Assembly: GCF_025380365.1 (NCBI RefSeq)
Contig: NZ_JAOCQF010000001.1
Span: 1,600,245-1,664,244 of the forward strand
From: Albidovulum sediminis
GTDB lineage: Bacteria > Pseudomonadota > Alphaproteobacteria > Rhodobacterales > Rhodobacteraceae
Length of the DNA stretch: 64,000 nt
Direction: 5' to 3'
The notes beneath the pieces were generated by a model that did no database searches, was not told where the DNA came from, and saw only the letters and a list, made by a program, of their open reading frames with translations. Within the stretch, counting starts at the first letter, position 1. Each line of letters starts with the position of its first letter. The position numbers and the translations under genes are program-made. Positions 3,613-22,624 of this stretch are shown here, one piece after another.

Positions 3613-3621
3613 TCTTCTTCT

Positions 3622-3921: not shown

Positions 3922-3930
3922 CGTGCCCTC

Positions 3931-4539
3931 CTATGCGCCATCGCCGGCCGGCGCGGCCTGCCCGACCCGACCGTTGCCGCCCCGCGCGATGTCGAGCGCG
4001 CGGTCGATCAGTTCGTGGGCGTACTGCGGAAACCTATCAGACTGCTTCTTCAATGCCACGAGGTTCATGGCGAAGGCGCAGACTTCGGACGCGCCGACCG
4101 GCGCGGGATGCTGCGACAGCGCCCCTTCCCCCAATGTGCCGTCGCAGAACACGACCGCGTTGGCGCAGTGCACCGTGTCGTCGTCGACATCGGCATGGTC
4201 AAGCGTCGCGCGCGCCTTCTCGCGGTTCTCGGGCGAGGGCTTGAAGACCCAGGCCTCCGCCGCCGCGAGCGAGGGCGTGTTGTTCTTCGGTGCCTCGCCG
4301 ACATAGTCGCGCGCCGCAAGGCAGGCCCACCAGACCCGTTCGCGCGCGGGAAGCGCCACGGACAGAAGGCGGATCATGTCGAAGACCGCCCCCTCGGCGT
4401 CCAGCGCCTCCAGCATCGCCTCGACCGGCGCGTTGACGGGCAGCGTGACCTTGGTCTGCAGCTTGGCGTTGGCCATCGCCAACATGCGCGCTGCGGGCTC
4501 TTTCGGGATCTTCTTCAGATCTGCAAATCGCTTGCTCAT
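3931..4539 (-). CDS. Conserved T6SS-associated protein of unknown function (202 aa)
   Basis: Not assigned with confidence. The product is alpha-helical and cytoplasmic, with no signal peptide or membrane segment. It opens MSKRFADLKKIPKEPAARM and contains WWACLAARDYVG followed by an Ala-rich helical stretch, then a short Cys-containing part (VFCDGTLGEG) and a helical C-terminus. It may belong to a DUF found in rhodobacterial T6SS loci (DUF6931 is my tentative recollection). It lies exactly between vgrG (7 bases upstream) and PAAR (9 bases downstream). That is where spike adaptors such as DUF4123 or DUF2169 proteins usually sit, so an adaptor or chaperone role is my inference. It shows no adaptor motif that I recognise. 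Confidence 0.8.
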   Translation of the reverse strand: MSKRFADLKKIPKEPAARMLAMANAKLQTKVTLPVNAPVEAMLEALDAEGAVFDMIRLLSVALPARERVWWACLAARDYVGEAPKNNTPSLAAAEAWVFKPSPENREKARATLDHADVDDDTVHCANAVVFCDGTLGEGALSQHPAPVGASEVCAFAMNLVALKKQSDRFPQYAHELIDRALDIARGGNGRVGQAAPAGDGA

Positions 4540-4546
4540 GGCATCC

Positions 4547-6706
4547 TCAGTTGATCATCGTGATGCCGCCCTTGAGGGTCAGCATGCCGTCACCCTTCAC
4601 CGTGGTCATAGGCGACTTGGCCTCGAGCGTACCCTTGCCCTCGATGGTGACCATCGCGCCGGTGATGGTGATGCCGGTCTGGTCGATCTTGATCGAGTTC
4701 GAACCCACGGTCAGCGTGATCTCGGTCGCCGCCTCGATCGCGATGCTGCCGGTTGACGAAGTCTCGGTGATGTTGCCGGTGACGGTGAAGTCCGACTTGC
4801 CCTCGACCGTGACCGAATTGTCGCTCTTGACCGTCTCGGTGTGATTGCCGGTCACGGTTTCGGTCCGGTCCGCGCCCACCGTCCGCGTCACGTTCTGGCC
4901 GATGTCCTCGGTCTGGTCGGTCTTGATCGAGCGGATCTCGTTCCCGGTCTCGACGGTGAAGGTGCTGTCGCCCATCTTCACCGTCTCGGTCCGGCTGTTG
5001 TAGATGGTCTGGGTGAAGTCGCCGGGGTTCTTCTTCTCCATCCCGATGGTGATGATTGCGTTGTCCTTGATGATCTCGAAATAATCCTTCTCGGACTGAA
5101 GGCGCACGAATTCGGCGTCCTTCGTATCCTCGAAGATCAGTTCGCTGTAGGTGGTGTCGTTCCCGCTCTTGGTGCTGTGGGTCTTGATCCCGGTCTGGGT
5201 CATGCTGGCGGGCAGCGTGTGATCGGTCCGGGCCGACGCATGGGGCGGCGCGGTCTCGGAGGTCTTCGGCGGCATCGTTTCGGCGTGATAGAGCATGCCG
5301 GTGCAGATTGGCCGGTCGGGGTCGCCCTCCTCGAACATGATGGCGACTTCCTGTCCCACGCGCGGAATGGCGATGAAGCCCCAGCCGTTGCCGGTCCAGG
5401 GCATGACGCAGCGCACCCAGCAGGTGCAGGTATCGTCGGTGGCCTCGTTCCGGTCCCAGTGGAACTTGACCTTGATGCGCCCGTAGGTGTCGGTGTGGAT
5501 CTCCTCGCCCGAGGGCCCCATGACCTTCGCGGTGTGCAGGCCGCCGATGACCGGCCAGGGGGTTACCTTGGGCGCGCGGAACTGGGTGGCCTTGGGAATC
5601 GTCTCGAACAGGCAGCGATAGGAATCGATCTGGTCGTCGGTCACCTGCGCGCCGTCGCGTTCAAGCACCCGCTGCCGGGTCTGGTCGTCGTCATAGTCGG
5701 TCTCGACCCGCAACTGGTGGGTGGCCTTCGTCACCAGGAACTCGGTCTGGTCCGAGGTGCGCGGGTGGTTCGTCATGGTGAAGGTCGCGCCGGCCGCGAA
5801 GGTGCGCACGTTGCATGCCCCGCGATAGGTCTGGTGGCCGACGGCCTTCGCCTCGAGCGCGACCTTCGTGCGCCCCTCAGCCTCGTCCACGGTCGTGTGA
5901 TGGCCGGGGTAGTGATAGATCTCGTAGCTGTTGTGGTCGTGGCTGCCCTTGGTCACCGTCGTGACCTTCATCAGGCTCGCGCTTGGCGTCTCGAAGTTGT
6001 AGTCGGTCATCGCCACGCTGCCCGCCACCACCGCCTCGCTTGGCGCCCATTCGAAGATGTGGTCGTTCGCGCGCCGGTAGGCTTTCTCGCGGAAGTGGAA
6101 CTCGATGCTGGCCGCGCCGGGAACCGCCGAATGGGCCCCCACGCCGTCGGCCAGAACGAGCGTGTCGACCGTTCCCGAATAGGTGAAGAAGAAGTAGATG
6201 CCTTCCTCCTCCATCAGGCGGCAGATGAAGTCGTAATCGCTTTCGCCGTACTGAACGCAGTAGACGCGTTCGGTGTAGGTGCCCGACAGCGAATCCGTGA
6301 TGTCGGTGAACCCGGCATCCGACAGGACCTGCTTGACGATGTCGGGCGTCGTCATGTTCTGGAAGATGCGGTTGTTCTTGCCGAGCGTCAGGAACCACAG
6401 CCGCGGGCGCACCTTGGCCTCGAAATGGCCGAACCCCTGATAAAGCCCAAGGAAGCGCACCGAAACGCAGGTGCCGATGAACTTCCGTTCGCTGTCATCC
6501 TGCGCCTTGACGAAGAGCGTGAAGGTGCTGCCCGCCACGGTCGCAAGGTCGAGCGCGCGGTCCTTGGCCAGAAACTCCACCGTAGTGTCCATGATCCTGC
6601 TCAACCCTTCCTCGACCACCGCCGACTTCAGGAAGACGTTGGTGTCCGCGAAAGAACACTCCATCCGGACCATCCGGCCCTCGAACTTGGTATCGGGTTC
6701 AGTCAT
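4547..6706 (-). CDS. vgrG: VgrG (TssI) spike protein
   Basis: Trimeric needle spike fired on the Hcp tube. I place the start at the ATG at 6704-6706 (MTEPDTKFEGRM), preceded by AGGAGG at 6714-6719, giving 719 residues. Domains run in order: gp27-like hub (about 10-370, including the YGESDYDFICRLMEEEGIYFFF motif); gp5 OB-fold (about 400-490, TDTYGRIKVKFHWDR and AIPRVGQEVAIMFEEGDPDRP); then a Thr/Val-rich beta-prism with repeats such as TETVTGNHTETVKS running to the C-terminus. No extra effector domain follows the beta-prism, so this is a structural, not evolved, VgrG. Confidence 0.97.
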   Translation of the reverse strand: MTEPDTKFEGRMVRMECSFADTNVFLKSAVVEEGLSRIMDTTVEFLAKDRALDLATVAGSTFTLFVKAQDDSERKFIGTCVSVRFLGLYQGFGHFEAKVRPRLWFLTLGKNNRIFQNMTTPDIVKQVLSDAGFTDITDSLSGTYTERVYCVQYGESDYDFICRLMEEEGIYFFFTYSGTVDTLVLADGVGAHSAVPGAASIEFHFREKAYRRANDHIFEWAPSEAVVAGSVAMTDYNFETPSASLMKVTTVTKGSHDHNSYEIYHYPGHHTTVDEAEGRTKVALEAKAVGHQTYRGACNVRTFAAGATFTMTNHPRTSDQTEFLVTKATHQLRVETDYDDDQTRQRVLERDGAQVTDDQIDSYRCLFETIPKATQFRAPKVTPWPVIGGLHTAKVMGPSGEEIHTDTYGRIKVKFHWDRNEATDDTCTCWVRCVMPWTGNGWGFIAIPRVGQEVAIMFEEGDPDRPICTGMLYHAETMPPKTSETAPPHASARTDHTLPASMTQTGIKTHSTKSGNDTTYSELIFEDTKDAEFVRLQSEKDYFEIIKDNAIITIGMEKKNPGDFTQTIYNSRTETVKMGDSTFTVETGNEIRSIKTDQTEDIGQNVTRTVGADRTETVTGNHTETVKSDNSVTVEGKSDFTVTGNITETSSTGSIAIEAATEITLTVGSNSIKIDQTGITITGAMVTIEGKGTLEAKSPMTTVKGDGMLTLKGGITMIN

Positions 6707-6734: not shown

Positions 6735-7013
6735 TCACTCGATCGGCGGTTCGCAGTCCAAAAGGTGGCCATCGCGGCGCAGGCGCGCGACGATGTCGGG
6801 GTTGATGCCCCAGAAATCGGTCATCGACTGATCGGCGCCCAGGTAGGCGCGCAGGGCGAAGTGGTTCGCGAACTGGTAGCAGATCACCGGCGTCGGGAAG
6901 AACCCGCCGCCCATCAGCATCGGGTTTAGGTATTCCTCACCCTGCGAAAGCCAGTAGGTCTCGCCGATCTGCAAAAGCACCATGCGCGGTTCCGGTCCGC
7001 TTGCGTCGGTCAT
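6735..7013 (-). CDS. Small unknown T6SS operon protein (92 aa)
   Basis: Not recognised. The ATG at 7011-7013 overlaps the TGA of the sheath chimera (ATGA), implying translational coupling; a GTG one codon upstream is the alternative. The 92-residue product is aromatic-rich, with no signal peptide or membrane helix (ETYWLSQGEEYLNPMLMGGG, then CYQFANHFALRAYLG). It ends 28 bases before vgrG. Size and tight coupling suggest a partner of the chimera or of the spike, but nothing in the sequence proves it. Confidence 0.75.
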   Translation of the reverse strand: MTDASGPEPRMVLLQIGETYWLSQGEEYLNPMLMGGGFFPTPVICYQFANHFALRAYLGADQSMTDFWGINPDIVARLRRDGHLLDCEPPIE

Positions 7014-10000
7014 CACAATCCCTCCAGCAATGCAGCGAGTTCCGGGTCCATCTCGCCCGGTTCCGCGCTCGAAGACCCCAGATCGTCGAACCCGGCAAGA
7101 AGCGCGTCGAGATCGGCATCGCCGGACCCTTCGCCATCCCCGCCGCCGATGTCCAGGCCGGATAGCAGCGCATCGAGGTCCGCATCGCCCGCCGCGCCCC
7201 CACCAGTGTCGAGCCCGGAAAGGAGCGCATCGAGATCGTCGCCCCCCGACCCGGCCGGCGCGGGAATGTCCATCTCGATGTCGGCCGGCCGCGCCGCCAC
7301 GCCCGGCATCGTCGGCGGCGGTTCCTTCGGCGGCATCGGCACGCCGGTCCAGCGGCCCCGGATCTCCGACCCCGCAAGCGACTGGAACGATCCCAGCCGG
7401 ATCTCGTCCCGACCCCGGATCGACAGGACCGGCTGATAGCCGCGCGTGACGACGTGCTGCACCTTAGAGGTGGTCAGGTTGCGCTCCGTATGCGGCAGCG
7501 CGACCTGATCGCCGTGGCGGTCGCGGACGTAGTGGAAGGGGATGTCGTTGATCGACATGACCGACCCCAGGCTCATCTGCTTGCCGTGTTTCGACCAGCC
7601 GATGCCCAGCAGCACCGCGACCAGCAGCACCGGGTTCGCCCAGAGCATGCCCGACAGCCCCTCGCTTTCGGTGAACTCCTCGAAATCGAAGGCATCGACC
7701 GGATCGGTCCGCTCGCCATAGGGGCGGCGCAGCAGGAACCGGGGCGAGGCGACGCCGAGGTAGGCCGCCTCGGGCAGCGCGCGCAGCGTGTCCCAGGCCT
7801 TGGCGACGAGCGGGTGGCGGTCCTCCTTCGCGACGTCGAGGAAGGCCGGCGAAATGGCAGTGAAGAACGGCGCGTCCACATGCGCGGCCACCTGCGCGAT
7901 CCGCGCCAGCAGTTCCGCGTGCGGCGGCGTCTCCTCGAAGGTGTAAAGACCGAACAGCGCGGAATAACCCCCCGGCCCCTCCTCGCCCAGCGGCCGGTCG
8001 GTCAGAAGCCGCAGCAAGCCGCTGTCCGACAGGTCGTCCTGCGCCGCAAGATCGACGGCCAGTTCCTCGGCCGAGACGTCGAAGAGGTCGATCGTCAGCT
8101 TGACGTCCGTCTCGATCCGCCGCGCCAGGAAGTCGAGCGAGCGCCACAGCGCCTCGACCGACTGGAACTCGGGGTGGTGCAGGATCAGCCGCATCGCCGA
8201 GGACAGCGCGTCATCGACCGCCTTCAGCATCGCGCTCGCGTCGGGATTGGGCGCCTCGACCACATGCGGGCCGATGATGCGCGCCACCATGTCGTCGATG
8301 GGCGATGCCTGCGTCAGCCGCCCGCCGGTGTCGCCGATCAGTTGCTGGAAGGCGCCCAGCTTCAGATTCGCGGGCACCGCCGAGCCTGCCGACGTGCGCC
8401 GCGGCGGCGCCAGCCGCTGGCCGTGCGCCTCGCCCCATTTCTGAAGCTGCGCCAGCGCGGCAGGGGCGAGCGAGGCGCTTTTCAGCCGCTGGCGCAGGCC
8501 GGAAATGCCCGAAAAGACCTCTACATTGTCGAAGATCTCGTCCGGATGCAGCGAGTCGAGATCCTTGAGCGCAACCTTGATACCCGCGCCGTCCGCTCCG
8601 ACCGGAAGCACAAGCTCGGTCGCGAAGCCCTCGATCACCTCCTCCACCGTATCGACGTCCAGCGGGATCGCGCGGCGATGGGCCAGCCCCTCGCCCGGCT
8701 CGATCAGGCCGCGCGCCGCACGGCCGGTGAAATCGCCGAAGATCGCCATGCGAAAACCGGTGCGCCGCAGGTCTTCGGGTGCCGGGCGCGGGGCCGAGAC
8801 GAAGCCGAACGGGTGCTCCACCCTGCGTTCGGACGGGCCACCGTGCGCACCGGCCTCACCATCGTCAGAGGTTCCGGACATGTCATCCTCCGTATCCATG
8901 CGGGATGCGTCCGCCTCGCCGGGGTCCGCGCCGCCCGACAAGTCCGTATCCCCATCCCCCGCGAGCAACGCGTCGAGGTCGGAAGCGTCGTCCCCTCCCC
9001 CCAACAACGCGTCGAGATCGGACGCGGCGTCCGCACTGCCGCCCGAGAGCAGAGCGTCGAGGTCGGACCCTGCATCCCCGCCGTCACCGGCGAGAAGCGC
9101 GTCAAGGTCGGAAGCGTCGTCCCCTGTCCCCGACAACGCGTCGAGATCGGACACGACGTCCTCACTGCCGCCCGAGAGCAGAGCGTCAAGATCGGACGCG
9201 GCGTCTGCATCGGTGTCCGAGAAGAGAGCGTCGAGGTCGGAGGTATCCTCCGCTACCGGCTCCGGTGCCGTGTCGAGCAGAGCCACAAGCGCATCGTCTG
9301 CGGATGTATCTTCCACAGCCGCCTCGGGTGCCGCCGTCCGCAAAGCCGCAAGCGCGTCGTCGGCAGAGGTATCTTCCGCAGCGGCCTCCGGCGCCGAGTC
9401 CAGCAAAGCCGCAAGCGCGTCGGCGGCGGAAGTATCTTCCGCAGGCGTCTCTGGTGCCGAATCCAGCAGCGCCGCGAGCGCGTCGTCGGTGGACGTGTCC
9501 TCCTCAGCCGCCTCGGGTGTCGCGCCGAGCAAAGCCGCGAGCGCGTCATTGGCCGGTGTGTCCTCCGCTACCGCCTCCGGCGCCGCCGCACGCAAGGCCG
9601 CAAGGGCGTCATCGGCGGAGGTATCTTCCTCAGCCGCCTCCGGCGCCGCGTCCAGCAAGGCCGCAAGCGCATCGTCGGTGGAGGTATCTTCTGCCACCGC
9701 CTCCGGTGCCGCGTCCAGAAGGGCGGCGAGCGCGTCGTCGGTCGAAGTGTCCTCCACAACTGCCTCCGGCGCCGACGCTCGCAGGGCCGCTAGGGCGTCG
9801 TCGGTCGAGGCGTCATCCACAACCGCCTCCGGCGCCGAATCCAGCAGAGCCGCAAGCGCGTCGTCGGTAGAGGTGTCCTCCTCAGCCGCCTCGGGTGTCG
9901 CGCCGAGCAAAGCCGCAAGCGCGTCGTCGGTTGAGGTATCCTCCAAAGCCTCCTCGGGTGCCGCCGTCAGAAGCGCGGCAAGCGCGTCGTCCGTGAAGGT

Positions 10001-11062
10001 ATCCTCCGCAACCGCCTCCGGCGCTGCCGCACGCAAGGCCGCAAGAGCGTCATCGGCAGAGGTATCTTCCGCAGCGGCCTCTGGCGCAGCCGCTCGCAAG
10101 GCCGCTAGGGCGTCGTCCGTGGAGTTTTCTTCCTCAGCCGCCTCCGGCGCCGAATCCAGCAAGGCTGCAAGCGCGTCGTCGGTTGAGGTGTCGTCCACAA
10201 CCGCCTGCGGCGCCGCTGCCCGCAGCGCGGCGAGCGCATCGTCGGTCGAGGTGTCCTCTACAGCCTCCTCGGGTGCCGCCGTCCGCAGTGCAGCAAGCGC
10301 GTCGTCGGTTGAGGTGTCGTCCACAACCGCCTCCGGCGCCGCTGCCCGTAGCGCGGCGAGCGCATCGTCGGTTGAGGTGTCCTCCAAAGCCTCCTCGGGT
10401 GCCGCCGTCCGCAGCGCAGCAAGCGCATCGTCGGTCGAGGTGTCCTCTATAGCCGCCTCTGGCGCCGACGCTCGCAAGGCGGCCAGCGCGTCGTCGGCCG
10501 AGGTGTCCTCTGCCATCGTCTCCGGCGCCGCTGCCCGCAGCCCGGCGAGCGCATCGTCGGCGGAGACATCCTGCACGGCGGGCGCGGCGACGAGAGCGGC
10601 CAGAAGGTTGCGGTCGCCCAGAACGCGTTCGATCAGCGCCTCGGCGCCGGCCTTGCCGTCCATGTAGGTCAGGAGGTTCGAAAGCTGCGTGCGCGCTTCC
10701 AGCAGCGCGCGCAGCGGCTCCACCCGGGCGGCGATCGCGCCGGGCGAGAAATCCGCCATGCTCTCGAAGGTGAGGTCGACCGCCATGTTGCCCTCGCCGC
10801 TCAGCGTGTTCGGCACGGCAAAGCTGACGCGCGGGGCGATGGCGCGCATGCGGTCGTCGAAATTATCGACGTCGATCTCGACGAACTTGCGGTCCTCGAT
10901 CGACGGCTGCGGCCGGGCGGACTTGCCGGCAAGATCGGACATCACCCCCATGACGAAGGGCAGTTGCACCTTCTTCTCGGCGCCATAAAGCTCCACATCG
11001 TATTCGATCTGGACGCGGGGCGCGCGGTTGCGGGCGATGAATTTCTGCGATCCGCTAGCCAT
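7013..11062 (-). CDS. T6SS sheath chimera: TssB-like, 21x21-aa repeats, TssB-like, truncated TssC-like
   Basis: Unusual 1349-residue protein. Residues 1-163 align without gaps to the canonical TssB of this operon and are about 76% identical by my hand count. Residues 164-603 are 21 tandem acidic/Ala-rich 21-mers (consensus EDTSTDDALAALLDAAPEA). Residues about 604-700 carry seven DLDALL-type motifs. About 750-870 resembles TssB again (FRMAIFGDFTGRAARG, then VALKDLDSLHPDEIFDNVEV). About 930-1236 matches TssC (LILHHPEFQSVEALWRSLDF; SPRFLLRRPYGERTDPVDAF) but stops where TssC continues with its last ~120 residues. The tail (1237-1349) has three more DLDALL motifs. The start overlaps the channel gene by 8 bases and the stop overlaps the 92-aa gene. 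It could be an alternative or regulatory sheath element; its function is unknown. Confidence 0.9.
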   Translation of the reverse strand: MASGSQKFIARNRAPRVQIEYDVELYGAEKKVQLPFVMGVMSDLAGKSARPQPSIEDRKFVEIDVDNFDDRMRAIAPRVSFAVPNTLSGEGNMAVDLTFESMADFSPGAIAARVEPLRALLEARTQLSNLLTYMDGKAGAEALIERVLGDRNLLAALVAAPAVQDVSADDALAGLRAAAPETMAEDTSADDALAALRASAPEAAIEDTSTDDALAALRTAAPEEALEDTSTDDALAALRAAAPEAVVDDTSTDDALAALRTAAPEEAVEDTSTDDALAALRAAAPQAVVDDTSTDDALAALLDSAPEAAEEENSTDDALAALRAAAPEAAAEDTSADDALAALRAAAPEAVAEDTFTDDALAALLTAAPEEALEDTSTDDALAALLGATPEAAEEDTSTDDALAALLDSAPEAVVDDASTDDALAALRASAPEAVVEDTSTDDALAALLDAAPEAVAEDTSTDDALAALLDAAPEAAEEDTSADDALAALRAAAPEAVAEDTPANDALAALLGATPEAAEEDTSTDDALAALLDSAPETPAEDTSAADALAALLDSAPEAAAEDTSADDALAALRTAAPEAAVEDTSADDALVALLDTAPEPVAEDTSDLDALFSDTDADAASDLDALLSGGSEDVVSDLDALSGTGDDASDLDALLAGDGGDAGSDLDALLSGGSADAASDLDALLGGGDDASDLDALLAGDGDTDLSGGADPGEADASRMDTEDDMSGTSDDGEAGAHGGPSERRVEHPFGFVSAPRPAPEDLRRTGFRMAIFGDFTGRAARGLIEPGEGLAHRRAIPLDVDTVEEVIEGFATELVLPVGADGAGIKVALKDLDSLHPDEIFDNVEVFSGISGLRQRLKSASLAPAALAQLQKWGEAHGQRLAPPRRTSAGSAVPANLKLGAFQQLIGDTGGRLTQASPIDDMVARIIGPHVVEAPNPDASAMLKAVDDALSSAMRLILHHPEFQSVEALWRSLDFLARRIETDVKLTIDLFDVSAEELAVDLAAQDDLSDSGLLRLLTDRPLGEEGPGGYSALFGLYTFEETPPHAELLARIAQVAAHVDAPFFTAISPAFLDVAKEDRHPLVAKAWDTLRALPEAAYLGVASPRFLLRRPYGERTDPVDAFDFEEFTESEGLSGMLWANPVLLVAVLLGIGWSKHGKQMSLGSVMSINDIPFHYVRDRHGDQVALPHTERNLTTSKVQHVVTRGYQPVLSIRGRDEIRLGSFQSLAGSEIRGRWTGVPMPPKEPPPTMPGVAARPADIEMDIPAPAGSGGDDLDALLSGLDTGGGAAGDADLDALLSGLDIGGGDGEGSGDADLDALLAGFDDLGSSSAEPGEMDPELAALLEGL
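8935..9253 (-). repeat. DLDALL motif array in the sheath chimera
   Basis: Seven copies of (S/A)DLDAL(L/F), spaced about 12-17 residues apart in a Gly/Asp/Ser-rich context (DLDALLSGG, DLDALLAGD, DLDALLGGG). Three related copies recur at the C-terminus (coding bases about 7060-7240). A short hydrophobic helix in an acidic disordered chain is typical of a docking motif. Confidence 0.85.
9254..10573 (-). repeat. Tandem 63-bp coding repeats (21 copies)
   Basis: Twenty-one in-frame units encode 21-residue repeats (the first is 20) in the sheath chimera. The core DDALAAL is nearly invariant. The variable positions are mainly R/LL after AAL, AA/DS/GAT, and E/D and T/A substitutions. The units differ in silent positions, so the array is not a fresh duplication, yet neighbouring higher-order pairs look more alike, as expected from unequal crossing over. 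Confidence 0.92.
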
Positions 11063-11921
11063 CCGCCCTGCCCCGCAGACCCGCGATCTCGCGGCGCAGT
11101 GCCGCGATCTCGTCCTTCAGTTCCAGCACATGCGCATCGACCTGGTCGGTCTCGCTTCGCACGAGATCGCGCAGCACCTCGAATTCCTTCTGCTCCTCCG
11201 CCTCCACCGCGCCCTGCATGGTGTTGACCAGCAGACCGATGAAGAGGTTGAGGACCGAGAAGGCGGTGATGATGATGAAGGGCACGAAGAACGCCCAGGC
11301 ATAGGGAAACTCCACCATGACCGGCCGGACGATGCCCATCGACCAGCTTTCCAGCGTCATGATCTGGAACAGCGAATAGAGCGATCGGCCGATGGTGCCG
11401 AACCATTCGTCGAAGACCGGGCCGAAGATGATCGTCGCCATCACCCCGAAGACGTAATACACGATGCCCAGCATGATGATGACCGCGCCCATGCCCGGAA
11501 GCGCGTCGAACAGCGCCTGCACGACCGCGCGCATCTGCGGCACGATCGAGAGAAGCCGCAGCGCCCGGATGACGCGCAGCGCACGCAGCGCCGAAAGGCT
11601 TTCGGTCGCGGGCAGAAGCCCGACGCTGACCACCACGAGGTCGAAGATGTTCCAGGCCGAGCGGAAGAACGAGAGCCGGTAGGCGAAGAACTTGAGCGCC
11701 AGTTCGCACACGAAGATGGTCAGGACCAGCCCGTCGATGAGCGAGAGCGCATCGCCGGCATGAGCCTTGGCCCAGCTCGACGTGGAAACCCCGAGCGTGA
11801 CGGCATTGAAGATGATCACCGCCAGGATCGCGTTGCGCACGCTTTCGCGTTCGATGAACACGCGCACCGCCTCCCTCGCCGATCGGTCCTGCCCTGCGAC
11901 TGCGTTGCCTTCCATCTTCAC
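11055..11921 (-). CDS. Bacterial voltage-gated sodium channel (NaChBac/NavAb-type)
   Basis: Six-transmembrane ion channel of the inner membrane. The 288-residue product has the complete BacNav layout: S1-S3 (about 28-105), an S4 voltage sensor with arginines every third residue (LRALRVIRALRLLSIVPQMR, about 113-132), S5, a pore with the selectivity filter TLESWSM (residues 189-195, identical to NavAb), S6 (IIITAFSVLNLFIGLLVNTM) and a C-terminal acidic coiled coil (about 235-288). The start is GTG at 11919-11921, or ATG two codons later. Its stop overlaps the next gene by 8 bases, so it is embedded in the T6SS operon. The family conducts Na+ on depolarisation. A role in secretion is inference: voltage sensing, ion supply, or an unusual effector. 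Confidence 0.92.
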   Translation of the reverse strand: MKMEGNAVAGQDRSAREAVRVFIERESVRNAILAVIIFNAVTLGVSTSSWAKAHAGDALSLIDGLVLTIFVCELALKFFAYRLSFFRSAWNIFDLVVVSVGLLPATESLSALRALRVIRALRLLSIVPQMRAVVQALFDALPGMGAVIIMLGIVYYVFGVMATIIFGPVFDEWFGTIGRSLYSLFQIMTLESWSMGIVRPVMVEFPYAWAFFVPFIIITAFSVLNLFIGLLVNTMQGAVEAEEQKEFEVLRDLVRSETDQVDAHVLELKDEIAALRREIAGLRGRADG

Positions 11922-11963: not shown

Positions 11964-12971
11964 TCAGACTTTCAGTTTCTTCTCGATGCGCTTGAAATGC
12001 GCCGCAAGGTCGACGAATTCCTTCCGGGCCTTTTCGCCGGCGCTGTCGTGCTGCCCGGCGTCCTTCTCGAACTTTTCGCGCTTGCGGCCGATGTTGTCGC
12101 TGTCGTCCTTGCGGCTGGCGACATCGTTGTGGGCTTCCCCGAGTTCCACGTCGAATTCGTAAAGCTCGCTTTGCAGCTTGTTCAGCGACGAGATCTTCTT
12201 GTTCACGTCGTCGGCGAAATCCTGCAGTTCCTTCGCCTCGGCATCTTTCAGACTGTCGCGCAGGCCGACGACGGCATCGATGGCCGACTCGATCTGCTTT
12301 CTCGTGGCGCCATACTTCTTCTTGACCTGGTCGATCGAGCGTGCGGAGCGCGCGAAGGCGCTATCGCGCCGCTTGTCCGCCGCCTTGATGAGCGCCTTCT
12401 TCTTCTTGTCGTCGCCTTCGTCCTTGGCGAGCGCCTCGTCACGCTCAGCCTTCACAAGCTCCTTGTGGAGCGTGTCGAAGGCGGCGATGACCTCTTTTGC
12501 GGGATCGCTGAAGACGTCCTTCAACGAAACCGAGTTCACCTCGCGCACGACGTCGAGCCCTTCCTTCAGAACCTTCTTGTCCGCCCCCGCGCCGGAGGAG
12601 GAGGCCAGTTCCTCCAGCGCCGCCTTGCACTTCTTGCGGATCAGTTTCGCGGTGTCGGCCAGGGCCGCCGGCAGGTCCTTGTCGACCGTCTTCTTCATCT
12701 TCTCGGGCGACTTTTCCACCGACTTCATCGCCAGCGCGACCGCCGTGGCGATGTACTTGAGCTCGTAAAGCACAAGGCCCTCAAGGGCCTTGGCCAGCTT
12801 CTTCTCGCTCCACTTGCCATCATCAAGCTCGAGCGACTGGGAGTATTCAAAGTCCTTGGCAAACAGTTTCACAAGGTCCGAGTCGGACTTGACCCAGTCC
12901 TTCGACTTCTTGTCGAATTCCTTGCGCGGACTGACCTTCAGTTCCGCCAGCATCGTCTTCTTGCCTGCCAT
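11964..12971 (-). CDS. Lysine-rich helical T6SS-associated protein (335 aa)
   Basis: Not recognised. The product is almost entirely charged and alpha-helical, with many Lys/Glu/Asp and long coiled-coil-like stretches (about 155-330; for example DKKKKALIKAADKRRDSAF). It has no Cys-rich site, signal peptide or membrane segment. The start ATG has a strong GGGAGG before it. It lies 21 bases after tssH and 42 bases before the channel gene, so it is co-transcribed with both. Its helical, Lys-rich style resembles the N-terminal part of the 1480-residue protein encoded at 27327, though I see no clear alignment. A scaffold, a secreted helical effector, or an immunity/chaperone partner are all possible. 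Confidence 0.85.
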   Translation of the reverse strand: MAGKKTMLAELKVSPRKEFDKKSKDWVKSDSDLVKLFAKDFEYSQSLELDDGKWSEKKLAKALEGLVLYELKYIATAVALAMKSVEKSPEKMKKTVDKDLPAALADTAKLIRKKCKAALEELASSSGAGADKKVLKEGLDVVREVNSVSLKDVFSDPAKEVIAAFDTLHKELVKAERDEALAKDEGDDKKKKALIKAADKRRDSAFARSARSIDQVKKKYGATRKQIESAIDAVVGLRDSLKDAEAKELQDFADDVNKKISSLNKLQSELYEFDVELGEAHNDVASRKDDSDNIGRKREKFEKDAGQHDSAGEKARKEFVDLAAHFKRIEKKLKV

Positions 12972-12992: not shown

Positions 12993-15704
12993 TCAGTCGA
13001 AGGCGTAGGTGAATTCACCGTCCGCCACGCCGATGTCCACCTTGCGCACGTCCTCGCCCGCCATCATCCGCTTCAGGAACTCGCCCGAGATGTCGGGCAG
13101 CATCGTGTTGGTGACGATCGCGTCGATCATGCGGCCGCCGCTTTCCAGTTCCTGGCAACGTGAGACAATCGTATCCACCACCGCGTCCGAGTAGGTGAAG
13201 GGGACATTGTGGGTGGATTTCACCCGCTTCTTGATCCGGTCGAGCTGCAGCCGCGTGATCGCCGCGATCATCGAGGGCGACAGCGGATAGTAGGGGATCG
13301 TGACCAGACGCCCGAGCAGCGCCGCCGGGAAGATCTTCAGCAGCGGGTCGCGCAGCGCCTTCGCGATCTCCTCGGGGTCGGGCATCAGCTCGGGGTCCGC
13401 GCACATGTCCATGATCATGTCGGACCCGGCGTTCGAGGTCAGCAGGATCAGGGTGTTCTTGAAGTCGATCACCCGCCCCTCGCCGTCCTCCATCACGCCC
13501 TTGTCGAAGACCTGGAAGAAGATCTCGTGCACATCCGGGTGCGCCTTTTCGACCTCGTCCAGAAGGACGACCGAATAGGGCTTGCGCCGGACCGCCTCGG
13601 TCAGGACGCCGCCCTCTCCGTAGCCCACATAGCCCGGAGGCGCGCCCTTCAGCGACGATACCGTGTGCGCCTCCTGGTACTCGGACATGTTGATGGTGAT
13701 GACGTTGTGCTCACCGCCGTAAAGCATTTCCGCCAGCGCCAGCGCGGTTTCGGTCTTGCCGACGCCCGAGGTGCCGGCCAGCATGAAGACGCCGATGGGC
13801 TTTGACGGGTTGTCGAGCCCGGCGCGGCTGGTGCGGATGCGCTTGGCGATCATCTTCATCGCGTGGTCCTGGCCGATCACCCGCTTGGCGAGGTGCTCCT
13901 CCAGATGCAGGACGGTGTCGATCTCGTCCTTCATCATGCGCCCGACGGGAATGCCCGTCCAGTCGCCGACGACGGTCGCCACCGCCTGCGCGTCGACGAT
14001 GGGCAGGATCAGCGGGCTTTCACCCTGGATGGCGGTCAGCTCGGCGTTCTTCGCGCGCAGCTCCTCGACCAGCTTTGCGCGTTCCTCCGCGCTCAAGGGG
14101 CTGGCCTTCGCCGCTTCCTCGCCCGCCGCGTTGGGGGCGTCGACCGGCGCGCCGCCCTCGCGCAGCTTGGCGCGGATGGCGAGGATCTCCTCGACCACCG
14201 CCTTTTCCCGTTCCCAGCGTTCGGTCAGGGCGGCCAGCCGCGCCTCTTCCTCGGCCTTGGCATGGCTGACCGCGGCGCGCCGCTCGGTCACGTCGTAACC
14301 CGCGGTCTCGTCCCGGTCGATGATCTCGAGCTCGGTCTGGAGCCCCTCGATCCGCTTGCGGCTGTCGTCGACCTCGGCCGGCACCGCGTGCTGGCTGATC
14401 GAGACGCGGGCGCAGGCGGTGTCAAGGACGCTCACGCACTTGTCGGGCAGTTGGCGGGCGGGAATGTAGCGCGCCGACAGCGACACCGCGGCCTCGATCC
14501 CCTCGTCCAGAACCTGCACGCGGTGGTGCTTTTCCAGCATCGAGGCGATGCCGCGCATCATCCGGATCGCCTTCGGCACGTCCGGCTCCTCGACCTGCAC
14601 GACCTGGAAGCGGCGGGTCAGCGCGGGGTCCTTTTCGATATGCTTCTTGTATTCGGCCCAGGTGGTGGCGCCGATCGTCCTGAGCGTGCCGCGCGCCAGC
14701 GCGGGCTTGAGCAGGTTGGCCGCGTCGCCCGTCCCGGCCGCGCCGCCCGCGCCGACAAGCGTGTGGGTCTCGTCCACGAACATGATGATCGGCACCGGGC
14801 TGGCCTGCACCTCCTCGATCACCTGGCGCAGGCGGTTCTCGAACTCGCCCTTCATCGAGGCGCCGGCCTGGAGAAGACCCACGTCGAGCGACAGGAGCCG
14901 CGCGTCCTTGAGCGAGGGCGGCACATCGCCCCGCGCGATGCGCAGGGCAAAGCCCTCGACCACCGCGGTCTTGCCCACGCCCGCCTCGCCGGTCAGGATC
15001 GGGTTGTTCTGGCGCCGCCGCATCAGCACGTCGACGACCTGGCGGATCTCCTCGTCGCGGCCCACGATCGGGTCGATCTTGCCGTCGAGCGCCTGCTGCG
15101 TCAGGTCGGTGCAGAACTGGTTCAGCGCCTCCTGCTTGCCCATCTGGGCAGGCGAACGCGCGCCCGACGCCTCGCCCGGCTCGACGCCGCCGCCCATGAC
15201 GGACCCGTCCTGGGCGCGCAGCCCGTCCTCGGGCGAGCCTTCGACGGCGCGGGCGAAGTTCTCGGCAAGGTCGTCGGCCTTGATCTTGCCGAACTCGGGC
15301 GAGATCCCGGTCAGGATCGCGCGCAGGTGCTTCGTCCTCAGCATCCCGAGGATGAGAAAGCCGGTGCGGATCTGGCCCGAGTTGAACTGGAGCGAGCCGT
15401 AGACCCAGGCCCGTTCGGTGGCGTCGTCGAGGTGTTCGGACAGGTCCGAGATGGCGCTGGCACCGCGCGGCAGCGCATCGAGCGCGCGCGTCATGTCGGC
15501 GGCGATCCGGCCCGGATCGAGGTCGAAGTGGCGGATGATACGGTGGATGTCGCTGTCCTGCCCCTGCAGGATCTGGTGCAGCCAGTGGACAAGCTCCACG
15601 TAAGGATTGCCGCGCATCTTGCAGAAGACGGTGGCGCTTTCGATCGCCTGGTAGGCCAGGCGGTTCAACTTGCCGAACAGGGCGACCCTGCTGATCTCGC
15701 TCAT
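12993..15704 (-). CDS. tssH: TssH (ClpV) sheath-recycling AAA+ ATPase
   Basis: Hexameric unfoldase that pulls apart the contracted sheath. I place the start at the ATG at 15702-15704 (MSEISRVALFGKLNRLAYQA), with GGAGGGAG upstream, giving 903 residues. The N-terminal Clp_N-like domain binds sheath subunits (about 1-160). AAA1 has Walker A GEAGVGKT (about 239-246). A middle coiled-coil domain spans about 420-540. AAA2 has Walker A GTSGVGKT (about 644) with VVLLDEVEKAHPDV as Walker B. A ClpB-type C-terminal domain ends the protein. tssG lies 41 bases upstream. With two sheath systems encoded here, ClpV could act on both (inference). Confidence 0.97.
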   Translation of the reverse strand: MSEISRVALFGKLNRLAYQAIESATVFCKMRGNPYVELVHWLHQILQGQDSDIHRIIRHFDLDPGRIAADMTRALDALPRGASAISDLSEHLDDATERAWVYGSLQFNSGQIRTGFLILGMLRTKHLRAILTGISPEFGKIKADDLAENFARAVEGSPEDGLRAQDGSVMGGGVEPGEASGARSPAQMGKQEALNQFCTDLTQQALDGKIDPIVGRDEEIRQVVDVLMRRRQNNPILTGEAGVGKTAVVEGFALRIARGDVPPSLKDARLLSLDVGLLQAGASMKGEFENRLRQVIEEVQASPVPIIMFVDETHTLVGAGGAAGTGDAANLLKPALARGTLRTIGATTWAEYKKHIEKDPALTRRFQVVQVEEPDVPKAIRMMRGIASMLEKHHRVQVLDEGIEAAVSLSARYIPARQLPDKCVSVLDTACARVSISQHAVPAEVDDSRKRIEGLQTELEIIDRDETAGYDVTERRAAVSHAKAEEEARLAALTERWEREKAVVEEILAIRAKLREGGAPVDAPNAAGEEAAKASPLSAEERAKLVEELRAKNAELTAIQGESPLILPIVDAQAVATVVGDWTGIPVGRMMKDEIDTVLHLEEHLAKRVIGQDHAMKMIAKRIRTSRAGLDNPSKPIGVFMLAGTSGVGKTETALALAEMLYGGEHNVITINMSEYQEAHTVSSLKGAPPGYVGYGEGGVLTEAVRRKPYSVVLLDEVEKAHPDVHEIFFQVFDKGVMEDGEGRVIDFKNTLILLTSNAGSDMIMDMCADPELMPDPEEIAKALRDPLLKIFPAALLGRLVTIPYYPLSPSMIAAITRLQLDRIKKRVKSTHNVPFTYSDAVVDTIVSRCQELESGGRMIDAIVTNTMLPDISGEFLKRMMAGEDVRKVDIGVADGEFTYAFD

Positions 15705-15745
15705 CTCTCTCACTCCCTCCGCCTGGGCCGGATGCGCCGGTCCCG

Positions 15746-16768
15746 TTATCCCAATCGCGACCGCGGAACGACGCAAAGGTCATCCGCGTTGCCGGTCCTT
15801 GTCCGCTTGCCGATCCACGAGGTCTGGCCCAGCTGCGTGTCCGCACCAAGCCGCGCCACCGGAACCTCTTCCGCCTTCAGGATGAGGTTCACATCCCAGT
15901 CGAGCGTATCGCCGATGTAGTTCCGCACCACCGCCTCCACCCGCGCCAGCGAGGCGCTGCCGGGCAGGAGCCGCCGGTAGTCCGCAAGCGTCAGGGGGCC
16001 GATCAGGACGCGGAACTTGGCGCTGCGCGACCAGACCTTCTGGCCGACGCTCGTCGCCTGGCCCAGTCCCGCGCGCGCGCCAAGCTGCCAGCGGTCGTCG
16101 GGCTCGAGGTCGAGCCAGGCGCCGACGAACTGGCGCACATTGACGGGCACGCGGAAGAAGGCCGACAGGACCGAAACCAGCCCTTCGGCGTTCTTCGCGC
16201 CGACCGCCAGGTGGCCGGCGAAATAGCGCTTCGCCAGGTCGGGCATCGCGTCGCGTTCGGCCATGCCCTTGCCGACATGGCCCGAGATCGCCGCGACCTT
16301 GCGCTGGACGGGATCGTTCTCCGGCCGGTCGAACGAGGGCGCCGGCTGGCCCGCAGACCAGGCGCGGTAAAGCAGGCTCATCAGCCGGTGCGTCAGCATG
16401 TTCGCGAAGGCGACGAAGGTCGGATCGCGATGATTGCGCAGGCGGTCGCGGGCGTATTCCGTCATATGCAGCGGCAGCGGCCCGTGCGGGCCGAACAGCC
16501 CGAAGAAGCGGTTGGTGAGCCGGCCGGGGCTTTCGCCTGCCGGCGGATCGAATCCGGCGATGGTCGAGGGCGGGAACGCCAGTTCCGCCTCCTGCCCGAG
16601 CCTGACGCGGTCCTGCGCCGGGCGCCGGCTTTCGCCCAGCCGGGGCGCCTCGGGGAAGGCCGCCTCGATTACACGCAGCGCGTGGAAGATGTGGAAGGAC
16701 TGGGGGTTGTCGGCCAGCTGCGCGAGATGCGTCAGATGATCCGGCCCAGTCCCTTTGCCGGACGCCAT
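15746..16768 (-). CDS. tssG: TssG, T6SS baseplate wedge protein
   Basis: Baseplate wedge subunit that binds TssF and TssK. The start ATG at 16766-16768 (MASGKGTGPDHLTHLAQLAD) has AGAGGAGA upstream and gives 340 residues, the normal size. Family landmarks: FHIFHALRVIEAAFPEAPRL near the N-terminus, FFGLFGPHGPLPLHMTEYAR at about 100-120, and the LGADTQLGQTSWIG segment close to the C-terminus. The gene overlaps the end of tssF by 37 bases, which supports coupled translation. Confidence 0.96.
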   Translation of the reverse strand: MASGKGTGPDHLTHLAQLADNPQSFHIFHALRVIEAAFPEAPRLGESRRPAQDRVRLGQEAELAFPPSTIAGFDPPAGESPGRLTNRFFGLFGPHGPLPLHMTEYARDRLRNHRDPTFVAFANMLTHRLMSLLYRAWSAGQPAPSFDRPENDPVQRKVAAISGHVGKGMAERDAMPDLAKRYFAGHLAVGAKNAEGLVSVLSAFFRVPVNVRQFVGAWLDLEPDDRWQLGARAGLGQATSVGQKVWSRSAKFRVLIGPLTLADYRRLLPGSASLARVEAVVRNYIGDTLDWDVNLILKAEEVPVARLGADTQLGQTSWIGKRTRTGNADDLCVVPRSRLG

Positions 16769-18610: not shown

Positions 18611-19108
18611 TCAGCCCCTCCGTTCCAGTTTCAGCTCGCCCGTGGTCACGTCCACCTCGGACCTGAGGTAAAGTTCCATCGGAACGGGTTGCGCCCACAT
18701 GTCGGCGCGGATCTCGAAGGTGACGATCGACTGGCTGGCGTTTTCCTGGGGCAGAAGCTCCACGTCCAGCGATCCGGGCGCGATGCGCGGCTCGAACATC
18801 GAGATCGACCGGTTGATCGACGCGCGGATCATCTGGGCCCTTTCGACCGAGGAATATTCGCCCGTCACTTCCTTCAACCCGTAGTTCAGCACGGAGGACG
18901 CGGCATTGGGATAGCGCGTGGCGTCGATCAGCGTGTCGGCGTTCTGCGAATTCAGCAGCCAGGACAGGTCGCGCTGGATGATATCGCGCAGGCGACGGAC
19001 ATCGATCACCCGGCTGTCGCGGGTCTCGTTCGGGTTCGAGGGATCGGTGTCTGTCAGCCTGTCGAGCAGAGACGGCTGAAGCCGCTCGGTGATCGTCAGG
19101 TCAGCCAT
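18611..19108 (-). CDS. tssE: TssE, gp25-like baseplate protein
   Basis: Homologue of T4 gp25; nucleates sheath assembly on the baseplate. I use the ATG at 19106-19108 (MADLTITERLQPSLLDRL), giving 165 residues. The gp25 lysozyme-like fold region spans about 40-150, with IQRDLSWLLNSQNADTLIDA and the baseplate-type EPRI motif (SMFEPRIAPGSLDVEL). The first 8 bases overlap the end of tagJ. Confidence 0.95.
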   Translation of the reverse strand: MADLTITERLQPSLLDRLTDTDPSNPNETRDSRVIDVRRLRDIIQRDLSWLLNSQNADTLIDATRYPNAASSVLNYGLKEVTGEYSSVERAQMIRASINRSISMFEPRIAPGSLDVELLPQENASQSIVTFEIRADMWAQPVPMELYLRSEVDVTTGELKLERRG

Positions 19109-19928
19109 CGGCCCCCGCTTCCGCGCCCGCCCCACCGCCTTCGTGGCGGATGGACAGCGTCCTCAGCTCCATGATGGGCGTGTCGCCCGCATCCGTTGCC
19201 AGCAGCCGCTGCCCGACGCCGAGGAAGGTATCCGCCCCCGCGTCGCGCCAGTCGGTGGAGCGCGAAAGCCGTGCGGCGTCATCGCCCGCCGCGACCGTGC
19301 CCGCGTAGCGCGTGGGGATCAGCGCCACGACATCGCCGCCGTTGCGCAGCGTGAGCGTCGCCGGCATCCAGACGCAGTCGCGCAGATCCTTCGGCGGCTC
19401 CACGATCATCGAGCCGATGGCGGTGAAGGGCATCCAGAAGTAGCGCCCGTTGACGATGATCTCGAGCACGGGGCCAAGCCGCATGTCGGCGTCCGCGATC
19501 CAGTCGAAGGGCAGGCCGTTCAACTCGCCCGCTGCCGCAGGCGCGGCCTCGAAGGCGCGTTCGCGCAGCGATGCGGCCTCGGCCGGGCGCCCCTGCGCCA
19601 GAAGTTTCGTGGCCTCGACCAGAAGCGCCGCCCATTCCTGCGGCTCGCCGAAGATCAGCGGGGCCTTTTCGCCCGCAAAGACCTTTTCGCGGAAAACCTC
19701 GCAGATGATCGCCTCGCGGTAGGTCTGGGCCATCGGGACGGCGGACGGGTCAAGCTCGGCGGAAAGTTTCAGCTGCGCGACCGCGCGCGTCCAGTCGCCG
19801 CGCACGCACAGAAGCTGGAACAGGAAGATGCGCAGCTTCGGGTCCGAGGCGCGCTTGCGGATGTCGGCCTGAAGCTCCTGCAGGGCGCCGTCGAGGTCCC
19901 CCGATTTCAACAACTCTTCGGCGCGCAT
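19101..19928 (-). CDS. tagJ: TagJ (ImpE/SciE) T6SS accessory protein
   Basis: Cytoplasmic accessory factor; in studied systems it binds the small sheath subunit and modulates ClpV access. I choose the ATG at 19926-19928 (MRAEELLKSGDLDGALQELQ), with GGAAGGA 7 bases upstream; a GTG 24 bases earlier is possible. The product is 275 residues. The N-terminal half is TPR-like helices (about 1-110). The C-terminal half is the ImpE beta domain (NGRYFWMPFTAIGSMIVEPP at about 160-180, then IPTRYAGT). It sits between hcp and tssE. Confidence 0.93.
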   Translation of the reverse strand: MRAEELLKSGDLDGALQELQADIRKRASDPKLRIFLFQLLCVRGDWTRAVAQLKLSAELDPSAVPMAQTYREAIICEVFREKVFAGEKAPLIFGEPQEWAALLVEATKLLAQGRPAEAASLRERAFEAAPAAAGELNGLPFDWIADADMRLGPVLEIIVNGRYFWMPFTAIGSMIVEPPKDLRDCVWMPATLTLRNGGDVVALIPTRYAGTVAAGDDAARLSRSTDWRDAGADTFLGVGQRLLATDAGDTPIMELRTLSIRHEGGGAGAEAGADG

Positions 19929-20006
19929 CCGGCGTCCTTCCCGCAAATTCACATGTCAATCGGCACCGGGCCATCGCAGGTCGCGACAGCCCGGCGCAGG
20001 TTTTCG

Positions 20007-20608: not shown

Positions 20609-22102
20609 TCAGCCTTTCTCGGACGGCAGCTTCGAGACGAGACGAAGCGACACCGAGAGACCCTCGAGCTGATAGTGCGGTTTGAGGAAGAACTTCGACG
20701 TGTAGTAGCCGGGATTGCCCTCGACCTCCTCGACGACGACCTCCGCCGCAGCGAGCGGGCGACGCGCCTTTTCGGTTTCGTGCGAGGTTTCGGCCGAGAA
20801 GTCGACATACTGGTTGATCCAGTCCTGGAGCCAGCTCTGCATGTCGTTGCGGCTCTTGTAGGAGCCGATCTTGTCGCGGACGATGCACTTCAGGTAGTGC
20901 GCGAAGCGGCAGGTCGCGAAAAGGTAGGGCAGCCGCGCGGCCAGGTTGGCGTTCGCCGTCGCGTCCGCGTCGTCGTATTCGGCCGGCTTGTGCAGCGACT
21001 GCGCCCCGATGAAGGCCGCAACATCGGAGTTCTTGCGGTGGATGAGCGGCATCATGCCGTTCTTGGCCAGCTCCGCCTCGCGCCGGTCGGAGATCGCGAT
21101 CTCGGTCGGGCACTTCTGGTCCACGCCGCCATCGTCGGTCGGGAAGGTGTGCGAGGGCAGGTTTTCGACCGCGCCGCCGGATTCGATGCCGCGGATGCGC
21201 GAGCACCAGCCGTACTGCTTGAACGAGCGGTTGATGTTCACCGCCATCCCGTAGGCCGCGTTTACCCAGCCGTACTTGTTGGAATCCGCGCCCTCGGTGT
21301 CTTCCTCGAAGGCGAATTCCTCGACCGGGTCGGTCTTGGAGCCGTAGGGCAGACGCCCCAGGAAGCGCGGCATCGCCAGTCCCACGTATTTCGAATCCTC
21401 GCTTTCGCGCAAGGACCGCCACGAGGCGTATTCAGGGGTCTGGAAGATCTTGGTCAGGTCGCGCGGGTTGGCGAGTTCCGACCAGCTGTCCATCTGGAAG
21501 AGCGTGGGCTTGGCGCCGGTGATCAGCGGCGCATGCGCGGCCGCGGCGATCTTGGCCATCTCGCCCAGAAGCTCGACATCGGGGGGCGAATGGTCGAAGT
21601 GGTAGTCGGCGACAAGGCAGCCGTAGGGTTCGCCGCCGAACTGGCCGAACTCCTCCTCGTAGACCTTCTTGAAGATCGGCGACTGGTCCCAGGCGGTTCC
21701 CTTGAACTTCCTGAGCGTCTTGTGCATGTCCTTCTTGGAGATGTTGAAGACGCGGATCTTCAGCATCTCATCGGTCTCGGTGTTGTTGACAAGGTAGTGG
21801 AGACCGCGCCAGGCGCTTTCGAGCTGCTGGAAATCCTCATGGTGCAGGATCTCGTTGACCTGTTCGGTCAGCTTCCTGTCGATCACCGCGATGATGCTTT
21901 CAATCGAGCGCAGCGCGTCATCGGAGATGAGCGCGGTATTCTCGAGCGCCTGCTGGGCAAGCGTCTTGACCGCCTGTTCGACGGCCGACTTGGCCTGGTC
22001 GGACTTGGGGCGGAACTCCTTCTGGAGGAGGTTCGCGAAGTCGGACGATCCGAAGGCGGTTTCCGCCGCGGCGCCGGACTGCTGGTGTTCTGCTTCGGCC
22101 AT
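20609..22102 (-). CDS. tssC: TssC (VipB) large sheath subunit
   Basis: With TssB forms the contractile sheath. The 497-residue product is full length: the TssB-interacting central part (ILHHEDFQQLESAWRGLHYL), the conserved GLAMPRFLGRLPYGSKTDPV segment, and the complete C-terminal domain (RFAHYLKCIVRDKIGSYKSR, then FFLKPHYQLEGLSVSLRLV). It starts 3 bases after tssB. The last ~120 residues are the portion missing from the TssC-like module of the chimera at 7013-11062. Confidence 0.98.
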   Translation of the reverse strand: MAEAEHQQSGAAAETAFGSSDFANLLQKEFRPKSDQAKSAVEQAVKTLAQQALENTALISDDALRSIESIIAVIDRKLTEQVNEILHHEDFQQLESAWRGLHYLVNNTETDEMLKIRVFNISKKDMHKTLRKFKGTAWDQSPIFKKVYEEEFGQFGGEPYGCLVADYHFDHSPPDVELLGEMAKIAAAAHAPLITGAKPTLFQMDSWSELANPRDLTKIFQTPEYASWRSLRESEDSKYVGLAMPRFLGRLPYGSKTDPVEEFAFEEDTEGADSNKYGWVNAAYGMAVNINRSFKQYGWCSRIRGIESGGAVENLPSHTFPTDDGGVDQKCPTEIAISDRREAELAKNGMMPLIHRKNSDVAAFIGAQSLHKPAEYDDADATANANLAARLPYLFATCRFAHYLKCIVRDKIGSYKSRNDMQSWLQDWINQYVDFSAETSHETEKARRPLAAAEVVVEEVEGNPGYYTSKFFLKPHYQLEGLSVSLRLVSKLPSEKG

Positions 22103-22105
22103 GTC

Positions 22106-22624
22106 TTACTCCGTCCCTTCCGCTTCATCCGCCTTGGGCGCCGGCGCGGCGGCCAGCGCCTTGAGAAGCGCCGGGTCCTGGATGATCTTGCCGATCAGGT
22201 TCTCGGCGCCGGTCTTGCCGTCCATGTAGGTCATCAGGTTCGACAGCTGCGTGCGTGCGTCCAGAAGCTTGCGCAGCGGCTCGACCTTGCGCGCGATCGC
22301 GGCGGGCGAGAAATCGTCCATGCTCTCGAAGGTGATGTCGACGGCAAGGTTGCCCTCGCCCGTCAGCGTGTTCGGTACGGTGAAGGCTGCCCGCGGCTTC
22401 ATCGACTTCATGCGGTCGTCGAAGTTGTCGACGTCGATCTCGAGGAACTTGCGGTCCGCCACGCCGGGCTGCGGCGCCTCGGATTTGCCGGAAAGGTCGG
22501 ACATCACGCCCATCACGAAGGGCAGCTGCACCTTCTTTTCCGCGCCGTAAAGCTCGACGTCATATTCGATCTGCACCCTCGGCGCGCGATTGCGCGCGAT
22601 AAACTTCTGTGAACTTCCCGCCAT
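22106..22624 (-). CDS. tssB: TssB (VipA) small sheath subunit
   Basis: Small sheath subunit, 172 residues. Signature segments: SSQKFIARNRAPRVQIEYDV (N-terminus), VQLPFVMGVMSDLSGKS and EIDVDNFDDRM, then the helix LRKLLDARTQLSNLMTYMDG. The start ATG (22622-22624) has GGGAG upstream. About three-quarters of residues 1-163 are identical to the first module of the sheath chimera, so one arose from the other by duplication. Confidence 0.98.
   Translation of the reverse strand: MAGSSQKFIARNRAPRVQIEYDVELYGAEKKVQLPFVMGVMSDLSGKSEAPQPGVADRKFLEIDVDNFDDRMKSMKPRAAFTVPNTLTGEGNLAVDITFESMDDFSPAAIARKVEPLRKLLDARTQLSNLMTYMDGKTGAENLIGKIIQDPALLKALAAAPAPKADEAEGTE

Follow-up and report, generated by a model that had tools for sequence, protein, structure and literature searches.

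Single-chain contractile sheath proteins, such as those of R2 pyocin, PVC, AFP and the myophages, bear linking arms and form sheaths alone. The type VI secretion system (T6SS) has its own two-chain sheath, composed of TssB (VipA, HsiB) and TssC (VipB, HsiC), and accessory proteins such as TssA and TagA act at the ends of the sheath. In the passages of PMC6745524 that deal with it, the distal-end protein TagA prevents excessive sheath extension, and those of PMC3702570 on Agrobacterium present TssC40 (Atu4340) as an extra, non-redundant TssC homologue of a T6SS. Here we describe a protein from a stretch of 64,000 nucleotides of Albidovulum sediminis (Rhodobacteraceae; contig NZ_JAOCQF010000001.1, positions 1,600,245 to 1,664,244), hereafter the window, where a single gene of a T6SS operon (7013..11062, minus strand) encodes 1349 residues arranged as a TssB, a repeat linker, a TssB-derived module (TssB'), a TssC-derived module (TssC') and an acidic tail.

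The frame is open without interruption for 1349 codons, from an ATG at 11062 to 7013, and this, together with intact three-module frames in relatives, rules out an assembly artefact or a frameshift, the latter named as a refuting outcome in a preliminary description of the window made from its letters. That description had divided the protein into a TssB copy, a repeat linker, a TssB-like module and a truncated TssC-like module, encoded beside separate canonical genes, and all of these parts were confirmed, the canonical tssB (22106..22624) and tssC (20609..22102) lying in the same operon on the minus strand. Module 1 (residues 1-160; 10583..11062, minus strand) is a complete TssB including its N-terminal segment. 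Pfam T6SS_VipA (PF05591) passes in two stretches of the protein, the best at residues 10-159, HsiB1 aligns with 239.7 bits, and the TssB model TIGR03358 gives 203.4 bits against a cut-off of 97.25, over residues 6-160 and profile positions 1-156 of 160. The arm that is kept here is the one that forms the handshake in Pseudomonas aeruginosa and that, in the parts of PMC4239648 concerned with it, is bound to HsiE1/TagJ, and residues 8-30 are conserved at 0.97 across 49 chimera TssBs.

The two remaining modules are sheath-derived as well, and the possibility that they would fail to match TssB and TssC profiles, which had been contemplated at the outset, did not materialize. Module 2, or TssB' (about residues 750-868; 8459..8815, minus strand), is the second VipA stretch, which in AlphaFold predictions has neither the N-terminal arm nor the C-terminal helix of TssB. 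Between it and module 3 lies a segment (8327..8365, minus strand) with the family consensus LSDFQxLIGDT in alignments and a short helix, at lower confidence, in two predictions (153-157 and 153-161; predicted local distance difference test, pLDDT, of 51-74 for the block). Module 3, or TssC' (residues 943-1238; 7349..8236, minus strand), is a VipB domain (Pfam, 945-1229) without the gp25-like C-terminal domain: VipB_2 is absent from the protein by Pfam, whereas the operon's TssC has both VipB and VipB_2, and the last ~120 residues first reported as missing correspond to the 112 positions of this domain. The protein stays under the cut-off of the TssC model TIGR03355 (139.3 versus 271.5), as do six of six relatives made only of TssB'-TssC' (95.2-219); these six also fall below the cut-off of TIGR03358, which they match over part of its length only, starting at position 23-31 and ending at 125-137 of 160, and at E<=0.01 they matched no further NCBIfam model. 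By structure alignment TssC' has the TssC-like core sheath fold, the alignment stopping at residue 397 of TssC1, and against R2 pyocin (3j9q_A) it covers only 24-289 of the 385 residues of the chain, without the arm and C-terminal domain of a single-chain sheath protein; no additional sheath domain was found by Pfam after residue 1238. Among the 50 structure matches listed, one chain per entry, there is no TssB chain, and the identity of TssB' rests on profile matches and on the alignments with single-chain sheaths. The homology of these modules, their predicted fold and the loss of both linking elements are results of the computation.

Compared with canonical TssB and TssC, to which its two halves are homologous, TssB'-TssC' is a single chain lacking both the N-terminal arm of TssB and the C-terminal handshake domain of TssC, with a repeat linker and a motif-bearing tail added; compared with the R2 pyocin, PVC, AFP and myophage sheaths, it has no linking arms and occurs inside a T6SS that has its own two-chain sheath. 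It is sheath-derived, yet it does not have the features that define a TssC and, as far as one can judge, does not assemble into a sheath by itself.

The module is not restricted to the window. In an even sample of 295 genomes of the family, drawn from a larger group, modules 2 and 3 used as query found a match at E<=1e-20 in 68, of which 32, window included, carry the module itself (E<=1.7e-155); the other 36 show matches of 3e-36 or weaker only, mostly over the TssC part. The search for this architecture in other T6SS loci of the family, proposed in the preliminary description, gave TssB'-TssC' in 32/295 genomes, with an N-terminal TssB in the same frame in 22 of the 32 loci, none in seven, and three loci cut by contig ends. 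Six of the seven loci without TssB have frames of 588-663 residues, and the seventh (L063) has 746 residues with a short linker. A separate TssC-type match accompanies the module in 32/32 genomes, on another contig in four (G089, G231, G044 and G264). In one plasmid locus (L007, P. marina pW43D, ~2149-5898) the gene is split into several pieces that differ in frame, because it is broken or through errors of sequencing.

A wider search of contigs returned at least 590 stretches matching the patterns, 539 of them encoding relatives. In the best 80 of these 539 plus the window, TssB is in frame in 52, absent in 20 and cut in 9. Those without TssB among the best 80 include ones from Acetobacteraceae, Rhodospirillales, a Piscinibacter metagenome-assembled genome (MAG; Betaproteobacteria), and MAGs of Planctomycetota and Verrucomicrobiota, these last two resting on 5-26 kb contigs of binned genomes, where misbinning is possible. 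Another betaproteobacterium, Eleftheria terrae, has a two-module fusion on a plasmid record, in a T6SS locus (L072) that also contains four tandem hcp genes and, further on, a run of RebB R-body genes. G620 belongs to a further class of the window's phylum, in which 15/369 genomes have a full-length fusion by query coverage, a count that excludes G382, in whose matches a stop is crossed, and G1233, truncated where its contig ends; the whole-phylum sample gave 3/398 genomes at E<=1e-60 and the class sample 2/385 with a match to the whole module, own genome included in both. A separate TssC was found in 30 of the 31 fusion genomes searched (14/14 at E<=1e-30, 3/3, and 13/14 at E<=1e-60), the exception being G1239. 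Since only the two-module form occurs in the distant phyla of the module tree, whose midpoint root serves for drawing only, TssB'-TssC' alone is probably the older form. The preliminary description, by calling the protein a chimera of TssB-like and TssC-like parts, understated these two modules, which form an old single-chain fusion found outside the family and the phylum as well.

The N-terminal TssB seems to have a history of its own. Its identity with the TssB of the operon, given as ~76% at first, was measured at 78% over 150 residues, but the accompanying idea of a recent extra TssB does not hold. In a TssB tree of 57 rows, whose bootstrap had not settled, the chimera TssB of the window falls with 15 other chimera TssBs into one supported clade (95/99) and sits apart from the TssB of its own operon, which rules out a recent duplication of the latter in the window. 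Some chimera TssBs sit elsewhere in the tree, and that of L066 pairs with the TssB of its own operon, so that the module was likely gained by more than one capture, or reshaped by gene conversion. Chimera TssBs also tend to have longer branches than the canonical ones.

The linker and the tail of the protein share their motifs. Linker part A (9239..10565, minus strand) was resolved by TRF into ~21 copies of a repeat of 21 residues (63 bp) with the core DDALAAL...APE...EDTST, and part B (8927..9238, minus strand) consists, by motif scan, of DLDALLSG repeats, copies of the tail motif M1. The figure of ~440 residues proposed for the linker is right for the 21-residue repeats, and the whole linker, with the DLDALL repeats, reaches 594 residues by the cut used. 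Among 20 repeat copies of the window, the proportion of synonymous differences (pS) is 0.526 and that of non-synonymous ones (pN) 0.139, a pN/pS of 0.26, with the DALAAL core and the P-E fixed or almost so. The 52 linkers measured, all from three-module proteins, have 169-1209 residues (median 595), 33.5% D+E and 1.4% K+R, and are nearly devoid of aromatics; relative to shuffles, D[VAIL]L..[LIM] is enriched 15-fold and DL[DE][DAES][LI]L 92-fold.

The acidic tail (residues 1239-1349; 7016..7348, minus strand) is predicted to be mostly disordered, with block pLDDT mostly of 43-57 and of 69 for the last ten residues. It ends with M1, DLDALLAGF (7088..7114, minus strand), and the C-terminal motif M2, MDPELAALLEGL (7016..7051, minus strand), whose core columns are invariant or conserved at >=90% over 80 sequences; some distant fusions (L155, L156 and L185) are tailless. 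When the tail is included in the AlphaFold prediction, short helices appear at M1 and M2 (591-599 for M2), and no confident docking of the tail onto the module is seen, the rest of the tail being of low confidence. Matrices built from two-module tails only (17 sequences for M1 and 15 for M2) and scanned over the three-module linkers gave 353 matches for M1 against 3.3 expected, in 49/52 linkers, and 63 for M2 against 3.3 expected, in 23/52, counts that 0/200 column-permuted matrices reach. These sequence comparisons identify the linker repeats as amplifications of the short motifs at the end of the conserved tail; this amplification, like the conservation of the protein, is a computed result.

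We propose that the chimera is an accessory sheath subunit, whose TssB anchor would bring to the sheath both a multivalent motif array and a sheath unit that does not polymerise, a reading that we hold to be about evenly balanced between right and wrong. As the conservation of the anchor suggests, the N-terminal TssB would pair with canonical TssC and enter the sheath at low copy or at the growing end. In P. aeruginosa the C-terminal part of TssB is located at the untraced outer edge of the sheath, from where the linker would project outwards, like the reporter in TssB-fluorescent-protein fusions; TssB-mCherry serves for sheath imaging in the sections of PMC4594159 that treat it, so that an extension at the C terminus of TssB is plausible. 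The armless TssB'-TssC' could dock on the sheath and should not extend it, and is best read as a pseudo-protomer that may end, mark or guard the sheath. The linker, as the motif statistics suggest, would present the tail motifs of the protein itself (M1 LDxLLAGF and M2 MDPELAALLxDL) in multivalent form, concentrating a T6SS partner at the sheath. The two-module protein, probably ancestral, would dock as such, the TssB anchor and the amplification of the motifs being later additions in some Alphaproteobacteria. In acting at the sheath the chimera may work similarly to TssA and TagA, although, unlike them, it has no ImpA_N or VasL domain by Pfam.

Several observations weigh against this proposal. 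The seven of 32 family loci with TssB'-TssC' and no TssB indicate that the anchor is dispensable in some lineages, and in one of the anchored proteins, that of Sulfitobacter sp. M05 (L091), the TssB is eroded and shortened (39% identity), with a linker, a TssB'-TssC' and a tail that seem to be intact. A related T6SS locus (L071, SC52) shows no such gene in the stretch fetched between tssH and vgrG. The permuted matrices, in turn, get up to 224 (M1) and 31 (M2) matches, so that part of the motif enrichment reflects generic repeat structure.

The main rival, which we consider unlikely, is that of a recycling adaptor, in which the chimera would bring ClpV, directly or via TagJ, to a sheath from which an armless protomer would be easy to pull out. 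It draws on the near invariance of TssB residues 8-30, which comprise the TagJ-binding segment of P. aeruginosa in the parts of PMC4239648 already cited, and on a hydrophobic segment retained in TssC' where TssC has its ClpV-binding N-terminal helix. In 16 pairs compared by eye, with the window family counted once, the pattern of this segment tracks the class of the canonical TssC helix ([FLI]L[DQ] in 7/7 of the LL type and [FL]xxL[LMI] in 9/9 of the DFxxLL type), but these patterns overlap (L229 fits both and L232 is ambiguous), are post hoc and are uncorrected for kinship. P. aeruginosa HsiC1, of the same class, binds ClpV1 without that helix according to the same parts of that article, and TagJ also occurs in 6/7 of the two-module family loci, so that its presence does not predict the anchor. 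The linker itself does not look like an array of TssC-type ClpV helices, since a matrix of the TssC N-terminal helix found 6 matches against 3.3 expected, with 60/200 permuted matrices as high, and its 10-residue version 3 against 3.3; the likeness of DLDALL to DFANLL, judged by eye, thus failed the weight-matrix control.

A phospho-switch, with the EDTST threonines as sites for a kinase of the cluster and bound by the FHA protein TagH, appears quite improbable. This threonine is present in 18/20 window repeats, a TagH with an FHA domain is encoded in the operon, kinase and phosphatase genes occur in the T6SS clusters of relatives, and T..D occurs 12 times against 7.9 expected in two-module tails, in 9/15 tails (15 cut out of 20). 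In the 52 linkers, however, T..D is just 1.21-fold over shuffles, which leaves a phospho-threonine array for FHA binding unsupported, compared with 15-fold for D[VAIL]L..[LIM], and at the positions ahead of the D[VAIL]L core the top residue, T, does not exceed 19% of 689 instances. It would be more surprising still if the protein were a decoy that only competes with the sheath, or a decaying duplicate that does nothing: the longer branches of the chimera TssBs, the eroded TssB of L091 and the relative in pieces (L007) could be so explained, but the frames are intact in 22/32 family loci and in 51 of the best 80 further loci, the repeats show the pN/pS given above, and the tail motifs are conserved between phyla. 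Although a TssB anchor and a sheath-like unit at opposite ends could in principle span a distance, a ruler that sets sheath length by linker length is scarcely credible, with linkers of 169-1209 residues, of 594 and 723 in two close relatives with 93% identical modules, and no anchored linker in 7/32 family loci; of the sheath roles listed in the preliminary description, length-setting is therefore disfavoured, and entering or modifying the sheath is still the best idea.

In the operon, the chimera gene lies between vgrG and an Ion_trans-type ion-channel gene (11055..11921, minus strand; Pfam Ion_trans), whose stop its ATG overlaps by 8 nucleotides (ATGGCTAG), an arrangement that suggests translational coupling. 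Ruegeria conchae has an identical gene order, and so has Qingshengfaniella, with one small additional gene before vgrG. A channel gene within a T6SS operon is found upstream of the chimera in many, not all, relatives; as an obligate partner it can be discarded, since at the tblastn threshold used it was not found in module-bearing loci such as L060, L061, L062, L066, L117 and L126. Other T6SS genes of the window are clpV/tssH (12993..15776, minus strand; 80% identity to the annotated tssH of L004 at 15063), tagJ (19101..19952, minus strand; ImpE by Pfam, plus TPR) and tssA (22684-23736; ImpA_N present). Between clpV and the ion channel there is a fast-evolving gene (11964-12971) with a weak, sub-cut-off match to DUF1759, and immediately downstream of vgrG a DUF6931 gene (3931-4539), where relatives have a hypothetical gene. 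Elsewhere in the window, two very long overlapping frames on opposite strands (27327-31769, plus; 27723-31736, minus) have no Pfam match at E<=0.001.

By gene order, TssC40 would correspond to a second TssC homologue found beside tssC in G821 and G412; like TssC' it is an extra TssC homologue in a T6SS. This second homologue also matches the C-terminal part of TssC, and both genomes additionally have a TssB'-TssC' fusion. A TssC40-like gene, by position, next to tssC was noted together with the fusion in some T6SSs (L214/L217, L215/L218 and L251-L258), which makes three TssC homologues in one genome.

Public gene tables name the protein merely as a sheath large subunit. In three of three intact plasmid records (L004, L005 and L006; R. 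conchae, Q. alkalisoli and Leisingera S132) the protein is annotated as starting within the linker or right where the TssB module ends, so that most or all of TssB is missed. In a literature scope of mostly abstracts, with subscription journals and preprints outside it, no paper was recognised that describes a fusion of TssB and TssC lacking the C-terminal domain, and the TssB-linker-TssB'-TssC' protein is conserved but apparently undescribed.

How the growth of a T6SS sheath stops and how spent sheaths get marked is not fully understood. Having lost both linking elements, this conserved sheath paralogue lends itself naturally to the question, and it comes with natural variants for comparison, with and without the anchor and with linkers from 169 to 1209 residues. 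It also shows that, within the same system, the two-chain T6SS sheath is matched by a one-chain counterpart. We tentatively suggest, at somewhat less than an even chance, that the T6SSs of several classes, perhaps phyla, may have a third sheath component, a single-chain, armless and non-polymerising protomer serving as terminator or docking unit, which in roseobacters and their kin a duplicated TssB would have tied permanently to the sheath, with its own C-terminal motif amplified into a multivalent scaffold.
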